Virus record (IMG/VR): IMGVR_UViG_3300030060_003575
Span: 1-64,000 of that record
DNA: 64,000 nucleotides
From: a virus
Strand: one strand, 5' to 3'
Position 1 is the first letter of the stretch. Each line of letters begins with the position of its first letter. A program made the position numbers and the translations under genes. The notes under the pieces are model-generated. The model was not told the origin of the DNA, did not search any database, and worked only from the letters and a program-made list of their open reading frames with translations. Positions 26,917 through 57,058 of this stretch are shown here, one piece after another.

Positions 26917-27122
26917 TATTCTTCCTCCCATAAACTTTCATCCCAAGGGTTTACCATGACGATGTAATCATTGACAAAAACATTGATACAAGGAATACAA
27001 ATACTACCCCCGTCTACCTCAACATATTGTCTTATACCAAATATTGTTCTATTGGTATGATTACACACAACACAAGTTTCTATTTGGTGTTGCGATTTAT
27101 CGCCTGCAAACCATATGGTCAT
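26916..27122 (-). CDS. Zinc-knuckle protein, 68 aa
   Basis: A 68-residue protein with CVVC (near 17) and CIPC (near 42), and an acidic C-terminus (WDESLWEEE). It resembles the 51-residue protein that follows (CxxC-x~24-CxxC, IN-containing second knuckle), so the two may be diverged duplicates. Function unknown. Confidence 0.65.
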   Translation of the reverse strand: MTIWFAGDKSQHQIETCVVCNHTNRTIFGIRQYVEVDGGSICIPCINVFVNDYIVMVNPWDESLWEEE

Positions 27123-50478: not shown

Positions 50479-50514
50479 TTTTATTTGCCTCCTATAAATA
50501 TAGGTTTGAATTGG

Positions 50515-50598
50515 TTGCGGGAGGGGGATTTGAACCCCCGAAGCACTACGCACCGAATCTTAAGTCCGGCCCCTTTGACCATACTTGGGAATCCCGCA
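50515..50598 (-). tRNA. tRNA-Leu (anticodon UAA)
   Basis: The minus strand folds as a class II tRNA. The acceptor stem TGCGGGA/TCCCGCA has 7 bp. The anticodon loop is CTTAAGA (anticodon TAA), on the stem CCGGA/TTCGG. A long variable arm follows, and the T arm is GGGGG-TTCAAAT-CCCCC. A discriminator A and an encoded CCA (50512-50514) come next. It reads UUA, which is very common in these AT-rich genes, so it may supplement the host supply. No intron is seen. Confidence 0.9.
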
Positions 50599-50603
50599 TT
50601 ATG

Positions 50604-50855: not shown

Positions 50856-51437
50856 TTATTCACGCATATTAACTAGCAAAAGAACCAAGTATCCTATTAG
50901 GTCTTTTACTACGTCTTCATCAGATTCTAATGATGCATTACCTTGCATCAACCTGTTCAATTTATCATCTATGCGAACTTTCAACTGTTCTGTCTTATCA
51001 GCCCTAGAAAATATTCTTATTGGCTGTAAAGCGGAATCACCATATTGGTCATTCTTATCAAGGAGAAACTGTGTTATTTCTCCCATTGTCTTTGAAATCT
51101 TAAAACTGGATTCGTCTTGGCCCTTCACAGGCTTGGCCTGCTCTTTCGCCTTATTATACTTACCCGCTATCAGATTAGGTTGCATATGTGTTCCCCATTG
51201 AGAGGAACCCATTATCTTTTTAAGATAAGGTTCATTTATTATCTTCTCTTTAGATTGACTCTTTGGTTTTCTACCACCATTTCTTTTACTGATTGTTCCT
51301 TGAGCCTGTAGTCTGTAAATGCGTTGTCTTACAGAACCGACTGTTCTATTCATTTTCTTGGCTATTGCTATCGCAGTTAGCCCTTGCTTCCACAGTTTCA
51401 TTAACTGTGTTTCTTCTTTCTTTGTCCATTTCGTCAT
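50856..51437 (-). CDS. SANT/HTH–MazG-like fusion protein
   Basis: A 193-residue protein. Residues 1-45 form a SANT/HTH domain (WTKKEETQLMKLWKQG...VRQRIYRL). The C-terminal ~75 residues (LLDKNDQYGDSALQPI, VRIDDKLNRLMQG, DVVKDLIGYLVLLL) match the all-alpha MazG-like pyrophosphohydrolase family common in phages. It is perhaps a regulator tied to nucleotide pools. GGTGATTTT precedes the ATG. It is the first gene of the minus block next to the control region. Confidence 0.7.
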   Translation of the reverse strand: MTKWTKKEETQLMKLWKQGLTAIAIAKKMNRTVGSVRQRIYRLQAQGTISKRNGGRKPKSQSKEKIINEPYLKKIMGSSQWGTHMQPNLIAGKYNKAKEQAKPVKGQDESSFKISKTMGEITQFLLDKNDQYGDSALQPIRIFSRADKTEQLKVRIDDKLNRLMQGNASLESDEDVVKDLIGYLVLLLVNMRE

Positions 51438-51479
51438 AAAATCACCGATGTTAATTATCTCAGTTTCTTGCAGAGTGTT

Positions 51480-51753
51480 GTTTCCACAACATTTCTACAA
51501 GTCTGGAAACGACATAATGATGCGGTTAGCATCACTAACTCAGCCATATTGCCCCCATTCGTTTTCGTTTCCATTTTTCCATCATTTACACCCCCTGCTC
51601 AAAAGGAAGGAAGGAAGGAAGGAAGGAAGGATAGAGAGAGAGGGGTGGAAAAGTATGTAATAATGTAAATATATTATAATGTATTAGATATATTATCTAA
51701 CTCTTCCATTCTATCTCACTTTCATTTCCAACTCCAATTGGAAACGTGGAAAC
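51480..51753. promoter_or_regulatory. Cluster of TGGAAAC/GTTTCCA motifs
   Basis: At least five copies occur: 51480-51486, 51504-51510, 51567-51573, 51739-51745 and 51747-51753, plus TTTCCA at 51725. The last group forms TTTCCAA-x6-TTGGAAA. The cluster lies upstream of the first minus-strand gene and could be an operator or iteron set. Confidence 0.5.
51603..51630 (+). repeat. AAGG microsatellite, 7 copies
   Basis: Seven uninterrupted AAGG units are followed by a GA-rich tract. It is a purine-rich, slippage-prone tract in an otherwise non-coding upstream region. Confidence 0.8.
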
Positions 51754-51859
51754 GTTTGACCCCCTTATCATATCATATAGGATATGTCATATGCATAAGT
51801 GTATAGTATATACATATATTATACATAGAGAGTCTTCCCGGTACATATCGAATCAATGG

Positions 51860-51960
51860 CGCGATTTAACATCATAACATTTTACGCCATAAATTCTGAT
51901 TAGTATATACTGGCCTTTGGTGGAATACGTGCTTGTAAGGCCATTGATTGTAATTGCCAC
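51860..51960 (-). ncRNA. Possible small structured RNA
   Basis: Downstream of a TATA-like CTTATATATCC (51982-51992) the minus strand contains TTGGTGG, TGGCCTT, CCACCAA and AGGCCA in that order. These pair as interleaved stems (a, b, a', b'), so a pseudoknot is possible. No credible ORF explains the stretch. The RNA itself is inferred. Confidence 0.3.
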
Positions 51961-52166
51961 CAACAATTCTATAGATGGCAGGGGATATATAAGTCGGCGG
52001 CACCCCTCGATGCCCCTCGTCTATAAATATCCTATTTGTCGAACCATATGGTATCAACAACTTTGTCCAGTTGAAACCTGATTTTGAGGAGTCCGACAGG
52101 AAAGGGCGACTTTATCCCTTTCCTGCCAGACAAGAATTGCTGCTAACTAGGCGTGAAAGAAGGGTT

Positions 52167-52676
52167 TTATTCCTCTTCCTCCACAAAGTCGTATTCTGCA
52201 CAAGCGGCAAGTCCATCTAGTGAACCATCCCATGAGCCGTCCTTGTAAAGTTCCCTTGCCGTCTGCTTTGCTTTCTTAGCGAGGGTGTTTGCGTAATCAT
52301 TAGCATCTGTGAACACAGGTGGCCCTGCGCTCTTTCCGTGCTTTCTGAGCAATGGCTGAGAATACTGCGCTGTGCTCTCAAAGAACGTATATGCAGCCTC
52401 TCGGATTGCTTCAGCAGCAGAATCAACCACTACTGATGCAGCAGCAGGTAGTAATCCTTGATTACCTCTGCGCCATACAACCTTTCCTGAAGGGAAGTCC
52501 TTCAGCATTGCTTTAATGGATAGAGCCAAAGCAGCCCTATTATCCACATTGTTGTCACCAGTCTCTATTAGCATAGTTGCTAGAGACCTTACATCATCGG
52601 GGATTGTTCCATCAACGTCACCCTCGATGCATGAGTTTACCTTCATCTTTACCGATTCCCAATTTACTTCATCCAT
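52167..52676 (-). CDS. Cassette protein A, 169 aa
   Basis: An acidic protein of unknown family. It is helical, with LPAAASVVVDSAAEAIREAAY, then KHGKSAGPPVFTD, YANTLAKKAK and YKDGSWDG, ending EEEE. The C-terminal motifs HGKSxG and DGS recur in the other cassette protein (54406-54939), so the two are probably diverged paralogues. GGAAAG precedes ATG 52676. The promoter is the TATA at 52738-52748. It occupies the cassette bounded by CATATG 52045 and 52770. Confidence 0.65.
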   Translation of the reverse strand: MDEVNWESVKMKVNSCIEGDVDGTIPDDVRSLATMLIETGDNNVDNRAALALSIKAMLKDFPSGKVVWRRGNQGLLPAAASVVVDSAAEAIREAAYTFFESTAQYSQPLLRKHGKSAGPPVFTDANDYANTLAKKAKQTARELYKDGSWDGSLDGLAACAEYDFVEEEE

Positions 52677-52737
52677 AATATTCACTTTCCTATTTTTTCT
52701 TTCTTTGCCCGTTAGCGGCATAGTTGTCAATTCTCTG

Positions 52738-52776
52738 GGATATATAAGAGGTTTCAAACAAAGCGAAACCATATGG
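52738..52776 (-). promoter_or_regulatory. Promoter of cassette protein A
   Basis: Read on the minus strand: CCATATGG, then GGTTTCG-CTTTGTTT-GAAACC as an imperfect hairpin, then TATA box CTTATATATCC. The ATG lies about 60 nt downstream. The same order occurs at the right ends of the other cassettes, with the palindrome ~22 nt before TATA, where an activator could bind. Confidence 0.6.
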
Positions 52777-52935
52777 TAATGAGAGTTTTTTCAGGATACA
52801 AAGAAACATGCATAGAAAAACGCGCGAATTTTCCTTAGTCTAAATTCTTAGTGTGTTTTCTGCACCTCAGTTTCCACTGGTTTTGTTATTTAACATCACT
52901 TCTTTTACGCCCATTACATGACCATATGGATAGTT

Positions 52936-53081
52936 AGTACGTAGTTACGAGAGGGTCTATGAGAGTCGAGGACTCGTTTAGACTGCTATAAAGTCGAATA
53001 GACGTAAACTGCGTTAAGCAGTAGTAGACGGTAGCATAGGGTGAAGTAAAAGAAGGATTGCGGGTGACTGGTCTACGTACT
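52936..53081. repeat. Hairpin unit (apical GTTAA)
   Basis: AGTACGTAG (52936) pairs with CTACGTACT (53073-53081). The apical stem-loop CTGC-GTTAA-GCAG is at 53009-53021, with further small stems (CTATG/CATAG, GAGTC/GACTC). Confidence 0.55.
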
Positions 53082-53320
53082 CAGTTTCCCGATACATGAG
53101 GATATTTTACATGCTTACGCATAATTAACACCATATGATAGCAGTGTAACGTTAGTTAAACGTAATGAATAATGGTGTTTAATGAAACACCAATGAAATG
53201 TAGTAACGATACGTGTAACGAGGTATCTGATTGCTTCTACGAAGACGCTACGCTACAATCATATGGTGTTGATAAAACATAGGTGGCACTGAAAAGGTAC
53301 CGCTTGTTTACAATATCCTT

Positions 53321-53395
53321 ATGATTTGCTCCGCTTTTTACTATAGCCTATGCTACGTGCTTAATGCACTGTCGCAAAAAGAGTTCCCAAATCAT
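53321..53395. repeat. Hairpin unit (apical TTAAT)
   Basis: ATGATTTG pairs with CAAATCAT at the next CATATG. A CTTTTT/AAAAAG stem lies inside, and GTGC-TTAAT-GCAC (53357-53369) is the apex. Confidence 0.55.
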
Positions 53396-53559
53396 ATGGT
53401 TGGTTAAGGTTTCCTCTGGTTACCAGTGTGAGGTGCGGAACTAAGGTGCATTACGCACCAACGAAGGTGGTTTGTTCCGGCACGAACATGGTAAGCGGAG
53501 GTGCCAATTATACAACCTCAATGGGATTGGTCTATTCATCTCATTTAACCAACCATATG
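53393..53559. repeat. Unit with 15-bp inverted ends
   Basis: CATATGGTTGGTTAA at one end is the exact complement of TTAACCAACCATATG at the other. Inside lie CGGAAC...GTTCCG with apex GGTGC-ATTAC-GCACC, and a GGCAC/GTGCC stem. Confidence 0.65.
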
Positions 53560-53565
53560 GTTATA

Positions 53566-53630
53566 ATTCCTCTGGTATACGATTAAAGATGATTAGACAC
53601 ATTAAGTGTCCATCAGGATACCAGAGGAAT
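53566..53630. repeat. Hairpin unit (apical ATTAA)
   Basis: ATTCCTCTGGTAT pairs perfectly over 13 bp with ATACCAGAGGAAT. A GATG/CATC step follows, and the apex is GACAC-ATTAA-GTGTC (53596-53610). It is the most compact example of the class. Confidence 0.75.
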
Positions 53631-53680
53631 ATATACCCTAATAAAAAAAATAGGGTCTTGCGTCATAAGGCCTATATCCC

Positions 53681-53852
53681 TTAGCCTGTAACTTGACAGC
53701 ACACCTCGTCCGGTACTACTGTGCGAGAGAAAATATGAATTCTTCATAATCCCTACATAAATGTAAACGGACGCTAAATGCGTCTTATCGTTTTATATAC
53801 ATTTATTCTCGCCCGTTGTACCACGACGATTGTGCTGCAATTTACAGCCTAA
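53681..53852. repeat. Long multi-tier hairpin (apical TAAAT)
   Basis: The outer TTAGCCTGTAA/TTACAGCCTAA arms have one mismatch. Further paired steps follow (AGCACA/TGTGCT, GGTAC/GTACC, GCGAGA/TCTCGC, ATAAATGTA/TACATTTAT, AACG/CGTT), with the apex GACGC-TAAAT-GCGTC at 53770-53784. Confidence 0.65.
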
Positions 53853-53902
53853 CGCCTATAAAACCTTATCTCATACCATATGGTCGTAGACCTTAAGGGA
53901 AC

Positions 53903-54015
53903 GTTAAAGGAATCTAACTCCGCGCACTTGTACGCATTGTCTCATGCACCTTTGTTGGTGCTAAATGCACCTTTTCGACAATGGCACGAAGTCCACTTCC
54001 GTTATATCCTTTAAC
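53903..54015. repeat. Hairpin unit (apical TAAAT)
   Basis: GTTAAAGGA/TCCTTTAAC form the outer stem, CATTGTC/GACAATG the middle stem, and GGTGC-TAAAT-GCACC (53957-53971) the apex. Confidence 0.65.
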
Positions 54016-54047
54016 TTCTTCGACCCATATGATACTAATGAAATGGT

Positions 54048-54145
54048 GTTTGTAAAAAAAGTCGCGGTAACTTGTTAGCGTGACTACTCTACGTTAGTGC
54101 GTTAAGCACTAATCTAGATGTAGTAGCATAGGGTTTTTTACAAAC
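54048..54145. repeat. Hairpin unit (apical GTTAA)
   Basis: GTTTGTAAAAAA/TTTTTTACAAAC form a 12-bp outer stem. The CTAC/GTAG steps and the apex AGTGC-GTTAA-GCACT (54096-54110) follow. Confidence 0.65.
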
Positions 54146-54204
54146 AAGTATCTGATAGTCCAAGTATTCCTATCATATGGGTTTAGGTTCCAAAGATATA
54201 CAAG

Positions 54205-54283
54205 AGGTGAAGATAAAAGAAAAATGCATTAAGCATGAGCCGTAGGCGGTTCTTTTATTATTGGCGGAAGCCATGCTTCACCT
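54205..54283. repeat. Hairpin unit (apical ATTAA)
   Basis: AGGTGAAG/CTTCACCT, then directly ATAAAAGAA/TTCTTTTAT, then apex ATGC-ATTAA-GCAT (54224-54236). Confidence 0.65.
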
Positions 54284-54405
54284 ATTGTATAGCACGGAAC
54301 AACTACCCTCAATTGGGGTCATGTTCTCTAAAGTGAGAACATGTTACCATATGGTCATAACTTTGTGAAAAAGACCAGAAGAGGTTGGTGGCGACTAAAA
54401 CCAAC

Positions 54406-54939
54406 CTATTCTTCTGAACCCCCATTATCGGTGACGGCTGGATAGCCATCATCGGTGTACGACCCGTCCCAGTAGTATCTCTTATCGGTACCATTGGTAA
54501 ACGCATTGAAAGCGGCATTCAAGAATAGCCTCTCTTTCTTGGTCATATCATCTGCGTATGCAGATGCACCATCATCCATAGTGGAGTAAAGAACCCCACC
54601 GGACTTTCCGTGTGTCTTCGCAGTACCAGCCACTAGAGGGTACACGACTGTTGCCATGTTATCCCTGAAGGTTGCTAGGTACTTGTCGAAATCGGACTTA
54701 ACGGCAGTTGTCATTAGAGACTTTCTACCGCCACCAATAGGTGAATTGTCCAAATCAGCGAATACTACGCTGATGCTCGACCAGTGCCTCTTCCTGAGGT
54801 CAGGCTGTGCATCGCCTATTGCGAAGAGACCATCTACAATGACCCTTCTTCCCTCATGCTCTGGGTTCGCGTCAAACCACTCATTGACGTGTTCTTTCTT
54901 GTTGTTCCATACGCTGTCTTCCATGCTGTAATCAACCAT
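54406..54939 (-). CDS. Cassette protein B, 177 aa
   Basis: An acidic alpha/beta protein of unknown family. It has a basic-acidic N-terminus with NKKEHVNEWFDANPEHEGR, a central strand pair, then KTHGKSGGVLYSTMDDG and YYWDGSYTDDG. HGKSxG and DGS(Y/W) are shared with cassette protein A. AGGAGTGATAGAT precedes ATG 54939. Its cassette runs from CATATG 54348 to 55033. Copies of the GGTGGCGACTAAA sequence flank the gene in inverted orientation (about 54387 and 54962). Confidence 0.65.
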   Translation of the reverse strand: MVDYSMEDSVWNNKKEHVNEWFDANPEHEGRRVIVDGLFAIGDAQPDLRKRHWSSISVVFADLDNSPIGGGRKSLMTTAVKSDFDKYLATFRDNMATVVYPLVAGTAKTHGKSGGVLYSTMDDGASAYADDMTKKERLFLNAAFNAFTNGTDKRYYWDGSYTDDGYPAVTDNGGSEE

Positions 54940-54997
54940 ATCTATCACTCCTGTGAATTAGGTGGTTTAGTCGCCACCATAGCACTATTTTCAATGG

Positions 54998-55040
54998 TAT
55001 ATTTAAGGTACAGTTTAAACAAAGTAACGTACCATATGGG
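54998..55040 (-). promoter_or_regulatory. Promoter of cassette protein B
   Basis: Minus-strand order: CCATATGG, hairpin arms GGTACGTTA-CTTTGT-TTAAACTGTACC, then TATA-like CTTAAATATA. It has the same layout as the promoter at 52738-52776. Confidence 0.55.
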
Positions 55041-55148
55041 TGCAGGTTTAAGAATGCGTAGCATTCTCATTTAGTTGCTCGGCAACGATAAACGAGCAAC
55101 AAATGGCAAACCAAAGCCCCGTGGGAATGTTTGAGGCACGTAGTAAGA

Positions 55149-55197
55149 TGCTGCTGGTGTCCTTAGACTTGGCTTAATGCCAACGAGTCCAGCAGCA
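55149..55197. repeat. Hairpin unit (apical TTAAT)
   Basis: TGCTGCTGG/CCAGCAGCA outer stem, GACT/AGTC step and TTGGC-TTAAT-GCCAA apex (55169-55183). Two smaller hairpins (GAATGC-GTA-GCATTC, GTTGC-TCG-GCAAC) precede it between 55050 and 55095. Confidence 0.6.
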
Positions 55198-55244
55198 CCT
55201 GTTATCTACTTCCATATGGTCATACTTTGTTAAACAGACCATAA

Positions 55245-55615
55245 TCGCTCAACAATGATGCAACGATTTAAACTTGCGCTAACATCAATTTTACAAGTCG
55301 TTGTCTTACTCACTATTGAGATGCATCGTTTTTTGGTAACTGCCAGAAACGTGCAAAACTGGCTCAAGGATGGATGAGTGGATTCGTTTCCTTACCCTCA
55401 AGGTTACATGGGTGTTAGTTCATGCCATTAATTTTGCATGGGCTTTAACCCGTACCTACCAATAACCGACCCGCTAAGGTCATTGTAGTGCCTGTCTTTT
55501 TCTTCGACCGACTCCCTGTGCCGCTAAGCACCGATTATTGTGCCTTTCACCCTAACAACGGTGATATTCAGCCAATCCGGGTCACTCCGTCAAGTGACAT
55601 AGCAATAATATTGAT
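55245..55615 (-). ncRNA. ORF-less cassette, possible non-coding RNA
   Basis: The cassette between CATATG 55213 and 55653 has the same inverted CTTTGT ends as the gene cassettes, and a promoter-like right end (GGTAATGTAA-CTTTGT-TAAACATTACC then TTAAGTAAA). It contains no ORF longer than a dozen codons on the expected strand. Several short stems (GGG/CCC, GACC/GGTC) suggest structure. A transcribed RNA is inferred from the shared layout. Confidence 0.35.
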
Positions 55616-55660
55616 GGTTTACTTAAGGTAATGTTTAACAAAGTTACATTACCATATGGG

Positions 55661-55781
55661 TTGGCATTAAGCCAATGTTTAGACATTCCCTCATTTATCT
55701 GGCTGCGAGTACCGCTAGGCTTACATTAACCTCTGAAGGAGGTCTAAACAACCTCTTATCTTCCGAGGTTAATTGATACTC
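55661..55781. repeat. Hairpin pair (apical ATTAA and CTAAACA)
   Basis: TTGGC-ATTAA-GCCAA (55661-55675) is followed by a larger unit. GAGTA (55707) pairs with TACTC (55777), TTAACCTC with GAGGTTAA (55765-55772), and inside them GAGGT with ACCTC around a CTAAACA loop. Confidence 0.6.
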
Positions 55782-55819
55782 TCATCCATATGGTATTGAA
55801 CTTTGTCAACAATACCTGA

Positions 55820-56020
55820 CTAACTGGAATCATCTCCAGTTAAGCCAAGATAATCATTCAATGCTAGATTCAAATCATCCATGACTTGACCCAAATCATC
55901 ACCTGATACACGTAGTTTACTGATTGAAAGCACCAGTGAAGAACCAGATTTCATATGCTTGACTTCAAGCACATATTTGGGTTCGTTGATTTGTTGAACG
56001 ATTGTTTTTTCTTCTGTCAT
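55820..56020 (-). CDS. Cassette protein C, 66 aa
   Basis: A small protein with an N-terminal charged stretch, strands YVLEVKHM and SLVLSISKLRV, and the helix VMDDLNLALNDYLGL; it ends GDDSS. No family is recognised. GGTGATATT precedes the ATG. It occupies the cassette bounded by CATATG 55787 and 56176. Confidence 0.6.
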   Translation of the reverse strand: MTEEKTIVQQINEPKYVLEVKHMKSGSSLVLSISKLRVSGDDLGQVMDDLNLALNDYLGLTGDDSS

Positions 56021-56036
56021 AATATCACCAAAGGTG

Positions 56037-56122
56037 GAGGGGCCATTGAACCAAGTGACTACTTACAGGCATTGAATGCTCGGCGGCAATATACTGTATT
56101 ATCCAGTGTTGGTTGGCCCCTC
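56037..56122 (-). promoter_or_regulatory. Structured 5' leader of cassette protein C
   Basis: GAGGGGCC (56037-56044) pairs with GGCCCCTC (56115-56122), extended by GGTT/AACC. On the minus strand this hairpin lies between the promoter and the ribosome-binding site of gene 55820-56020, so it could control translation or be an independent RNA. Confidence 0.45.
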
Positions 56123-56143
56123 TATATCAATAGGTATTATGTA

Positions 56144-56182
56144 ATTTATAAGGTAATGTTTACAAAGCCCATTACCATATGG
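56144..56182 (-). promoter_or_regulatory. Promoter of cassette protein C
   Basis: Minus-strand order: CCATATGG, arms GGTAATGGG-CTTTGT-AAACATTACC, then TATA-like CTTATAAATTAC. The layout is identical to the other cassette promoters. Confidence 0.55.
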
Positions 56183-56198
56183 TTTAGTAAGTGACGGT

Positions 56199-56308
56199 CT
56201 TACTTGCCAGGGAAGGTACGTATACGCGCTTCAGGAACGTAAGTCGTTTAAACGCATTAAGCGTTAGACAAGTGAACGCGCGTAAACGTCCTGGAACTGG
56301 CAAGTAAG
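56199..56308. repeat. Hairpin unit (apical ATTAA)
   Basis: CTTACTTGCCAG/CTGGCAAGTAAG outer stem (12 bp), then TACGCGCTTC pairing with GAACGCGCGTA (one bulge), and apex AACGC-ATTAA-GCGTT (56251-56265). Confidence 0.7.
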
Positions 56309-56361
56309 AGCAGGAACGCACGTTAAAACCCCGTTAAACCTGAAGGGCATAAGGAACCTCC

Positions 56362-56491
56362 TTTAAGGCACTCTTGCTTAACGTAACTTAGACAAGACAT
56401 ATCTTCCGTTAAACGCTTTTGCTGGTACTTAATGTACCTACCACTCCATATCTGTCTTGTCTAACTTACGTTAAGCAAGGTAAACCTTAAA
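56362..56491. repeat. Longest hairpin unit (apical TTAAT)
   Basis: TTTAAGG/CCTTAAA, then CTTGCTTAACGTAA/TTACGTTAAGCAAG (14 bp), then TTAGACAAGACA/TGTCTTGTCTAA (12 bp), all perfect, then unpaired flanks and apex GGTAC-TTAAT-GTACC (56424-56438). It has more than 30 paired positions. Confidence 0.75.
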
Positions 56492-56504
56492 TCCAACTCC
56501 ATAT

Positions 56505-56570
56505 GATACGAGGTAGGATTCATCTGGGCTTTAGGCCCAAACTAAGGTGGTATGAATCCTTTGAAGTATC
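56505..56570. repeat. Hairpin unit (apical TTTAG)
   Basis: GATAC/GTATC outer step, AGGATTCAT/ATGAATCCT stem and TGGGC-TTTAG-GCCCA apex (56525-56539). Confidence 0.65.
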
Positions 56571-56768
56571 TTATGAGGATAGGATAAGCAAGCGGTATAT
56601 CCACAAGGGAGAAACCTATGCAATATTCCCACCATATGTTCACATAAGTGGGCGAACTCAATGGGGATTTATGGGCAATTACCTCCATCTTCGTTCATGT
56701 CTTATATCAAGACATTGTGTGTATTATCATATGCCCATTACCATATGGTTCCAGCATCGCTGGAAGAT

Positions 56769-56854
56769 AACTTGCAATGGAAGCATACAGCAATGAAAGA
56801 CGCATTAAGCGTCCACTTAGGTGTAGCAGGCTGTATGCATCCTAAATGCAAGTT
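56769..56854. repeat. Hairpin unit (apical ATTAA)
   Basis: AACTTGCA/TGCAAGTT, then GCATACAGC/GCTGTATGC, then GACGC-ATTAA-GCGTC (56799-56813), separated by internal loops. Confidence 0.7.
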
Positions 56855-56899
56855 ATTCACAGCCCCATTTGAGGATATACATCCATATGGTTATTAATC

Positions 56900-57004
56900 A
56901 CTTTCTACAAGAATGTCCTCCAAGGGCTTGTAAAATGTCCTAGAGACGCATTAAGCGTCTAACAAAGGTGAAGGGACATTTTAAGGGGATTCGCCGTAGA
57001 AAGT
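56900..57004. repeat. Hairpin unit (apical ATTAA)
   Basis: ACTTTCTAC/GTAGAAAGT outer stem, TAAAATGTCC/GGACATTTTA middle stem, AGACGC-ATTAA-GCGTCT apex (56944-56960). Confidence 0.7.
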
Positions 57005-57058
57005 TACAACGCAGTGTTAATCACCTCAGGTTGCTTAACGCTTCGCTACAACCATATG

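Follow-up and report, generated by a model that had tools for sequence, protein, structure and literature searches.

What is the function of a region in which the palindrome CATATG bounds one unit after another, some units carrying a small gene and others folding into long hairpins? We analyzed such an array at positions 52045-57058 of a 64,000-nucleotide window (positions 1 to 64,000 of the IMG/VR virus record IMGVR_UViG_3300030060_003575, of which the window is a portion, the record being 75,141 bp long). Our preferred reading, to which we give a probability of roughly 0.78, is that the region is a modular cassette-exchange platform of magrovirus-like archaeal viruses. Comparison of related genomes shows that units have been inserted, deleted, replaced and inverted whole at CATATG. 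The array is placed between two divergent operons and contains four gene or RNA cassettes (at 52045, 54348, 55213 and 55787) and about 15 noncoding units, adjacent units having one CATATG in common. The layout of the region is as follows, with lengths of proteins in amino acids (aa).

50856-51437, minus strand: gene of a 193-aa helix-turn-helix (HTH) protein, first of the leftward operon adjoining the array (Pfam HTH_28)
51438-52044, no strand: conserved leader of about 600 bp, putative replication origin (alignment of 19 genomes; GC-skew minimum)
52045-52775, minus strand: gene cassette A1, open reading frame (ORF) 52167-52685, 172 aa, family A (inward CATATGGT..ACTTTGT at both ends)
52770-54353, no strand: nine CATATG-bounded noncoding units with borders at 52770, 52923, 53132, 53260, 53393, 53554 (double), 53877, 54026 and 54174 (folding z -2.5 to -11.3; apical AUUAA-type hairpin in nearly all)
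54348-55038, minus strand: gene cassette A2, ORF 54406-54939, 177 aa, family A paralog, inverted with respect to relatives
55033-55218, no strand: noncoding hairpin unit (z -3.5)
55213-55658, minus strand: RNA cassette D, manA-like RNA at 55367-55597 (Rfam RF01745)
55653-55792, no strand: noncoding hairpin unit (z -4.2)
55787-56181, minus strand: gene cassette C, ORF 55820-56020, 66 aa, family C (inverted in the related locus L010)
56176-57058, no strand: noncoding units (56176 double, 56500, 56633, 56742, 56884) and the right edge of the array (z -1.7 to -8.3)

The window holds 46 CATATG sites in total, including 23 within 52045-57058, where CATATG is the most frequent hexamer and a first-order Markov model of the same 5.0 kb gave a mean of 1.9 sites and a maximum of 9 over 500 simulations. 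An earlier reading of the letters alone (the original prediction) had claimed 22 sites in 5.0 kb, nearly all at unit borders, against one or two expected by chance. The enrichment, the chance figure and the placement at borders are confirmed, with the count corrected to 23: about 21 of the 23 sites are unit borders, the probable exceptions being the one at 55952, which lies inside the cassette gene at 55820-56020, and the one at 56728, only 14 bp from 56742. The further claim of only a handful of sites elsewhere was wrong, the rest of the window having about 23 in 59 kb, approximately the chance level.

Using the flanking 385-aa protein as a query, we retrieved 35 related loci, and the CCATATGG cluster was present in most of those that reach the region. 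The array kept its position in every case where synteny could be examined, including relatives with as little as 41-52% protein identity, so that the claim of CATATG enrichment stands after a test in relatives that could have overturned it. Altogether, about 50 distinct and independent viral contigs from many samples carry a CCATATGG array, and their agreement rules out a mis-assembled repeat. The nine contigs that were fetched whole or nearly whole have one main array each, and several relatives have gene cassettes with few or no hairpin units. The symmetric site ACAAAGT-n-CCATATGG-n-ACTTTGT was found in 43 stretches of viral contigs and once in 257 Gb of bacterial and archaeal genomes; this sole cellular match (Clostridium) was taken as due to chance. 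We left out of the evidence locus L029, which fuses an array like that of L012 (99.98% identical) to a flank like that of the window (95%) within a 96-bp tRNA-Leu region (L029 7723-7818, window 50505-50600) and is likely an assembly chimera, or else the result of recombination at the tRNA.

Differences between related arrays involve whole units. The one exact empty/filled pair consists of L065, with a single CATATG at 1442, and L068, which has at that site a CATATG-bounded gene cassette of 376 bp (L068:3403-3779), with flanks 82-91% identical to L065 and a common border about 20 bp long. L050 and L067, at 86-89% identity, have different cassettes flanked by the same neighbours. In comparison with G001 (78-83% identical), cassettes A2, C and D of the window lie inverted with respect to the backbone, with alignments that end 2-10 bp from CATATG and an order that is not that of one simple inversion; the inversion of C in L010 was noted above. 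In some members of the broader group the accessory cassettes f3, f6, f13 or f14 break up the core order B-A-A'-C, f6 and f13 being reversed. L012 and L087 share a noncoding unit at 93% identity, more than that of the neighbouring regions (about 74-81%), which suggests that it was exchanged between lineages. Over all array alignments of at least 150 bp, 81 of the 408 ends of high-scoring segment pairs (HSPs) fell on CATATG in both genomes, against 1.4 expected and a maximum of 6 when the sites were shifted.

Pairing inward half-sites yielded 155 distinct gene-type cassettes with a median length of 691 bp. Each gene cassette has inverted ends of the form CATATGGT-n4-8-ACTTTGT, and in the profile of these ends the only conserved letters are CATATGGT and ACTTTGT, the latter located 12-17 bases after the start of CATATG with variable spacing. 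CA preceded TATGG-n-ACTTTGT in all 163 occurrences, and CATAT preceded the complete GGT-n-ACTTTGT-n-ACC ends in 181 of 186. Small stems can often be folded: ends of the form CCATATGGT-n-ACTTTGT often allow a short stem closed by GGT/ACC, and stems of at least 6 bp between the GGT-n and n-ACC arms were found at 45 of 272 ends, against 5 expected and a maximum of 11 with permuted arms. Just inside one cassette end lies what looks like an archaeal-type TATA box (CCYTATATA, TTAAATA) and, in many cassettes, just inside the other a terminator-like hairpin followed by a T run (e.g. GACCCTTTAGGGTCATTTTTT), both assigned by eye. Each gene cassette thus looks like a self-contained transcription unit, with a promoter, a single small gene or RNA, and a hairpin resembling a terminator. 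The ends of A2 (54373-54404 and 54965-54985) also contain a 13-bp complementary pair, GGTGGCGACTAAA/TTTAGTCGCCACC, and since this pair is partly retained in L010 with compensating changes, the ends of the A2 mRNA may pair with each other.

Clustering by content gave 55 members for family A (two paralogs in the window, and often two per array), 17 for family B and 12 for family C, many of the remaining cassettes being singletons. Pfam gave no match for the family A and B members scanned, and a fold search of PDB with cassettes A and B gave no convincing one; family A matched one unnamed viral model (E=2.6e-9) and is confidently predicted to be helical (AlphaFold pLDDT 92 for the A2 protein). 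Searches of isolate phages found no relatives of either cassette A or the flanking protein. No conserved ORF is present in cassette D. Its manA-like RNA at 55367-55597 (minus strand) matched RF01745 with 39.2 bits (E=1.3e-7), below the gathering score of 55.2, and similar RNAs occur in L012 (3117-3355), L017 (2901-3129) and L030 (3036-3270); the four arrays scored 32-46 bits, all under the gathering score, with E-values of 2e-4 to 1e-8 and the full model covered. Elsewhere, manA RNA has been described as a cis-regulatory element in bacteria and cyanophages; here it forms a cassette of its own in what is probably an archaeal virus.

The long hairpins originally described between CATATG sites were borne out, the 18 noncoding or short units of the window having a mean folding z of -4.7 against -0.44 in 25 control windows of the same genome; mean values for the noncoding units of three arrays were -4.7, -3.7 and -3.5 relative to shuffles. 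These units had been said to differ from one another, which is true of their primary sequence, but most of the noncoding units share one apical motif: in the window and in G001, a hairpin NNNGC-AUUAA-GCNNN, after which a sequence resembling AACUAAGGUG often comes. Matches to a covariance model of this hairpin were essentially confined to these two arrays, with no significant match in 18 other loci; one match on another viral contig, in a stretch without CATATG, was taken as chance. The strand that reads AUUAA was more stable by 2.7 +/- 0.8 kcal per 100 nt and had more G-U pairs (99 vs 68, Wilcoxon p=0.03), a bias to which the choice of loop may itself contribute. The greater stability and the G-U excess point to units that act as a single strand, either RNA or single-stranded DNA. 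The units occur in both orientations, no promoters were seen at them, and they constitute a lineage-specific structured family. Several noncoding units of L017 (2737, 3664, 3934) have a different common apical hairpin of the TTTAA-TTACA-TTAAA type, as if each lineage homogenised its own hairpin loop.

On its right side the array has a sharp edge, the backbone being alignable to G001 outwards from the last CATATG, and on its left side the leader and HTH gene start at the first CATATG. The leader begins with ACCATATGGT in all 19 aligned genomes and contains an AT-rich ATAT repeat block, a pyrimidine tract and TTTCTCA/TGAGAAA repeats. A lone ACCATATGGT without ACTTTGT arms occurs outside the array, at 27105-27121. 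At 51605-51640 there is a GGAA microsatellite, where relatives have CT, CCT or TTCC tracts with the same strand bias. In eight of nine contigs the minimum of the cumulative GC skew lies at or near the array; in the ninth (G024, cut at 100 kb) it lies at the contig end, some kilobases off the array. Gene direction influences the skew as well, which makes this weak evidence of an origin, and we regard the leader as a putative one. The HTH protein (Pfam HTH_28 E=2.8e-4, below the curated cut-off) has homologs in 23 contigs; in 22 of these, leader and gene together border the array, the gene starting at a distance of 501-645 bp from its edge. The protein is a candidate DNA-binding partner. Since the gene was not found in other groups (L032, L046, L049, L050 and others), the protein can serve as partner of the site in all groups only if it has diverged too far there to be recognised.

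The genes identified include PolB, an ERCC4-type nuclease, a clamp loader and a weak TFIIB zinc ribbon below cut-off. Magrovirales/Aoguangviridae have large marine double-stranded DNA (dsDNA) genomes with TFB, an RFC small subunit, PolB and two opposed gene clusters (PMC10768690), and the genes just named, together with the TATA boxes and two opposed operons, fit that description. The array belongs to a family of uncultured tailed dsDNA viruses that are most likely magrovirus-like and infect marine archaea. The nearest isolates for the clamp loader are cyanophages (33%), so that, despite the magrovirus-like gene set, an archaeal host is likely and not proved. A survey of magroviruses (PMC10160649) makes no mention of arrays, hairpins or cassettes.

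On the reading of the region as an exchange platform, recombination, or template switching by viral or host enzymes, would join units at the palindromic core, and because the CATATG core is symmetric, either orientation would be accepted. The position of the array beside a probable replication origin and between two divergent operons would favour exchange, and the noncoding units of the window lineage would travel with the array, perhaps being read as RNA or single-stranded DNA. The original prediction had offered three possibilities, of which the recombining cassette platform is the one upheld, by the insertion, replacement and inversion of whole units at CATATG. A control or origin region matches the neighbouring leader and the minimum of the GC skew better than it does the array; an array of small-RNA genes agrees with the manA-like RNA cassette and the structured noncoding family, but not with the lack of visible promoters there.

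Several observations weigh against the exchange platform. All contigs are metagenomic, many cassette ends pair over only 3-5 bp, and the variable distance between CATATG and ACTTTGT is unlike a rigid recombinase site. One reason why HSP ends cluster at CATATG may be that no other word in the cassette ends is as well conserved. The order of core cassettes is broadly conserved across large distances, so shuffling must be slow. Finally, we found no tyrosine recombinase (PF00589) in 47 records, with control genomes positive, and no serine recombinase (PF00239) in 48 records, other enzyme classes not having been searched.

Two of the alternatives overlap in probability with the exchange platform, being sub-mechanisms of it, and we rate them about equal. 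The first, which has a good chance while falling short of even odds, supposes borders like the PeSL elements that Arbiol in 2010 and Comeau in 2014 reportedly described in T4-type phages: the ends would serve as operators, terminators or insulators to which a viral regulator, for instance the HTH protein, would bind, and shuffling would be a by-product of homologous recombination between similar borders. It accounts for the TATA and terminator-like motifs directly inside the ends, for the failure to find tyrosine and serine recombinases and for the HTH gene next to the array in 23 contigs, and the border of L065 and L068 would suffice for short-homology recombination; but the same inward half-site occurs at gene 3' ends without a neighbouring promoter (e.g. 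52045), and cassettes lie in both orientations. The second, which we hold tentatively, is dedicated site-specific recombination, in which a recombinase outside the two Pfam families would insert circular cassettes in either orientation at the palindromic core. The exact gain of one unit and one CATATG in L068, the full CATATG that is obligatory beside every ACTTTGT arm, the inverted cassettes and the single main locus per genome all argue for it, while the failure to find either recombinase family and the variable arm spacing argue against it. Also on the exchange-platform reading, a fuller version that we consider rather doubtful is integrase-independent gene capture, in which an unrecognised enzyme would recombine cassettes in either orientation at the CCATATGG core, the end stems would display ACTTTGT and the hairpin units would be single-strand substrates or RNA parts.

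It is unlikely that the array itself is a replication origin or packaging site with hairpins as DNA structures for that role. In most complete contigs the GC-skew minimum falls at the array, which, like its place between divergent operons, is in keeping with such a role, but the origin-like sequence that is conserved, the leader, lies outside the array, several relatives do nearly or entirely without hairpin units, and the skew is open to the reading in terms of gene direction given above. Tandem non-autonomous transposons of the miniature inverted-repeat transposable element (MITE) kind, with TA target duplication and ACTTTGT terminal repeats, would explain the inverted ends, the TA-centred junction and the MITE-like shape of the noncoding hairpin units but are very improbable, given a full CATATG at 163/163 ends, elements almost only at one locus rather than scattered at simple TA sites, and core cassettes that keep conserved genes and a broadly conserved order.

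If the region is an exchange platform, it has the look of a natural plug-in system, with a fixed dock by a probable origin and self-contained genes with standard ends that move in either direction. The word CCATATGG with ACTTTGT arms could serve as a signature to find fast-evolving genes of such viruses, possibly those concerned with the host. The exchange of cassettes in the absence of a recognised integrase also becomes open to test.

In the literature that we searched there was no such border, and the known systems resemble the array in part. For invertases and shufflons, neither the serine (PF00239, 0/48) nor the tyrosine (PF00589, 0/47) enzyme was found. In the pdif/Xer modules of Acinetobacter plasmids, genes lie between short inverted recombination sites and are exchanged as modules; the array differs in having no 28-bp XerC/XerD site, a variable arm spacing and no tyrosine recombinase in the virus. 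Integron arrays and integrase-less attC clusters (CALIN) occur in phages (PMC9892861). They are similar in their gene-sized units, folding end sites, gain and loss of whole cassettes and fixed locus with a leader, and differ in that here no integrase was found (PF00589, 0/47), the ends are symmetric, and the cassettes lie in both orientations, each with its own apparent promoter. The original statement that the array has no attC sites and no integrase was correct, the attC boxes RYYYAAC/GTTRRRY being absent from the cassette-end profile at unit borders and tyrosine and serine recombinases numbering 0. For PeSL elements we know of no report of a dedicated integrase. As described in PMC4503421, they are promoter/stem-loop borders that recur between the small genes of hyperplastic regions and are tied to modular shuffling. 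The array is alike in having modules shuffled between related viruses. At its own borders, TATA-like and terminator-like motifs were seen by eye inside the cassette ends. Its distinguishing features are a palindromic CATATG border with symmetric ACTTTGT arms at both unit ends, units that invert, noncoding hairpin units and viruses that look archaeal.

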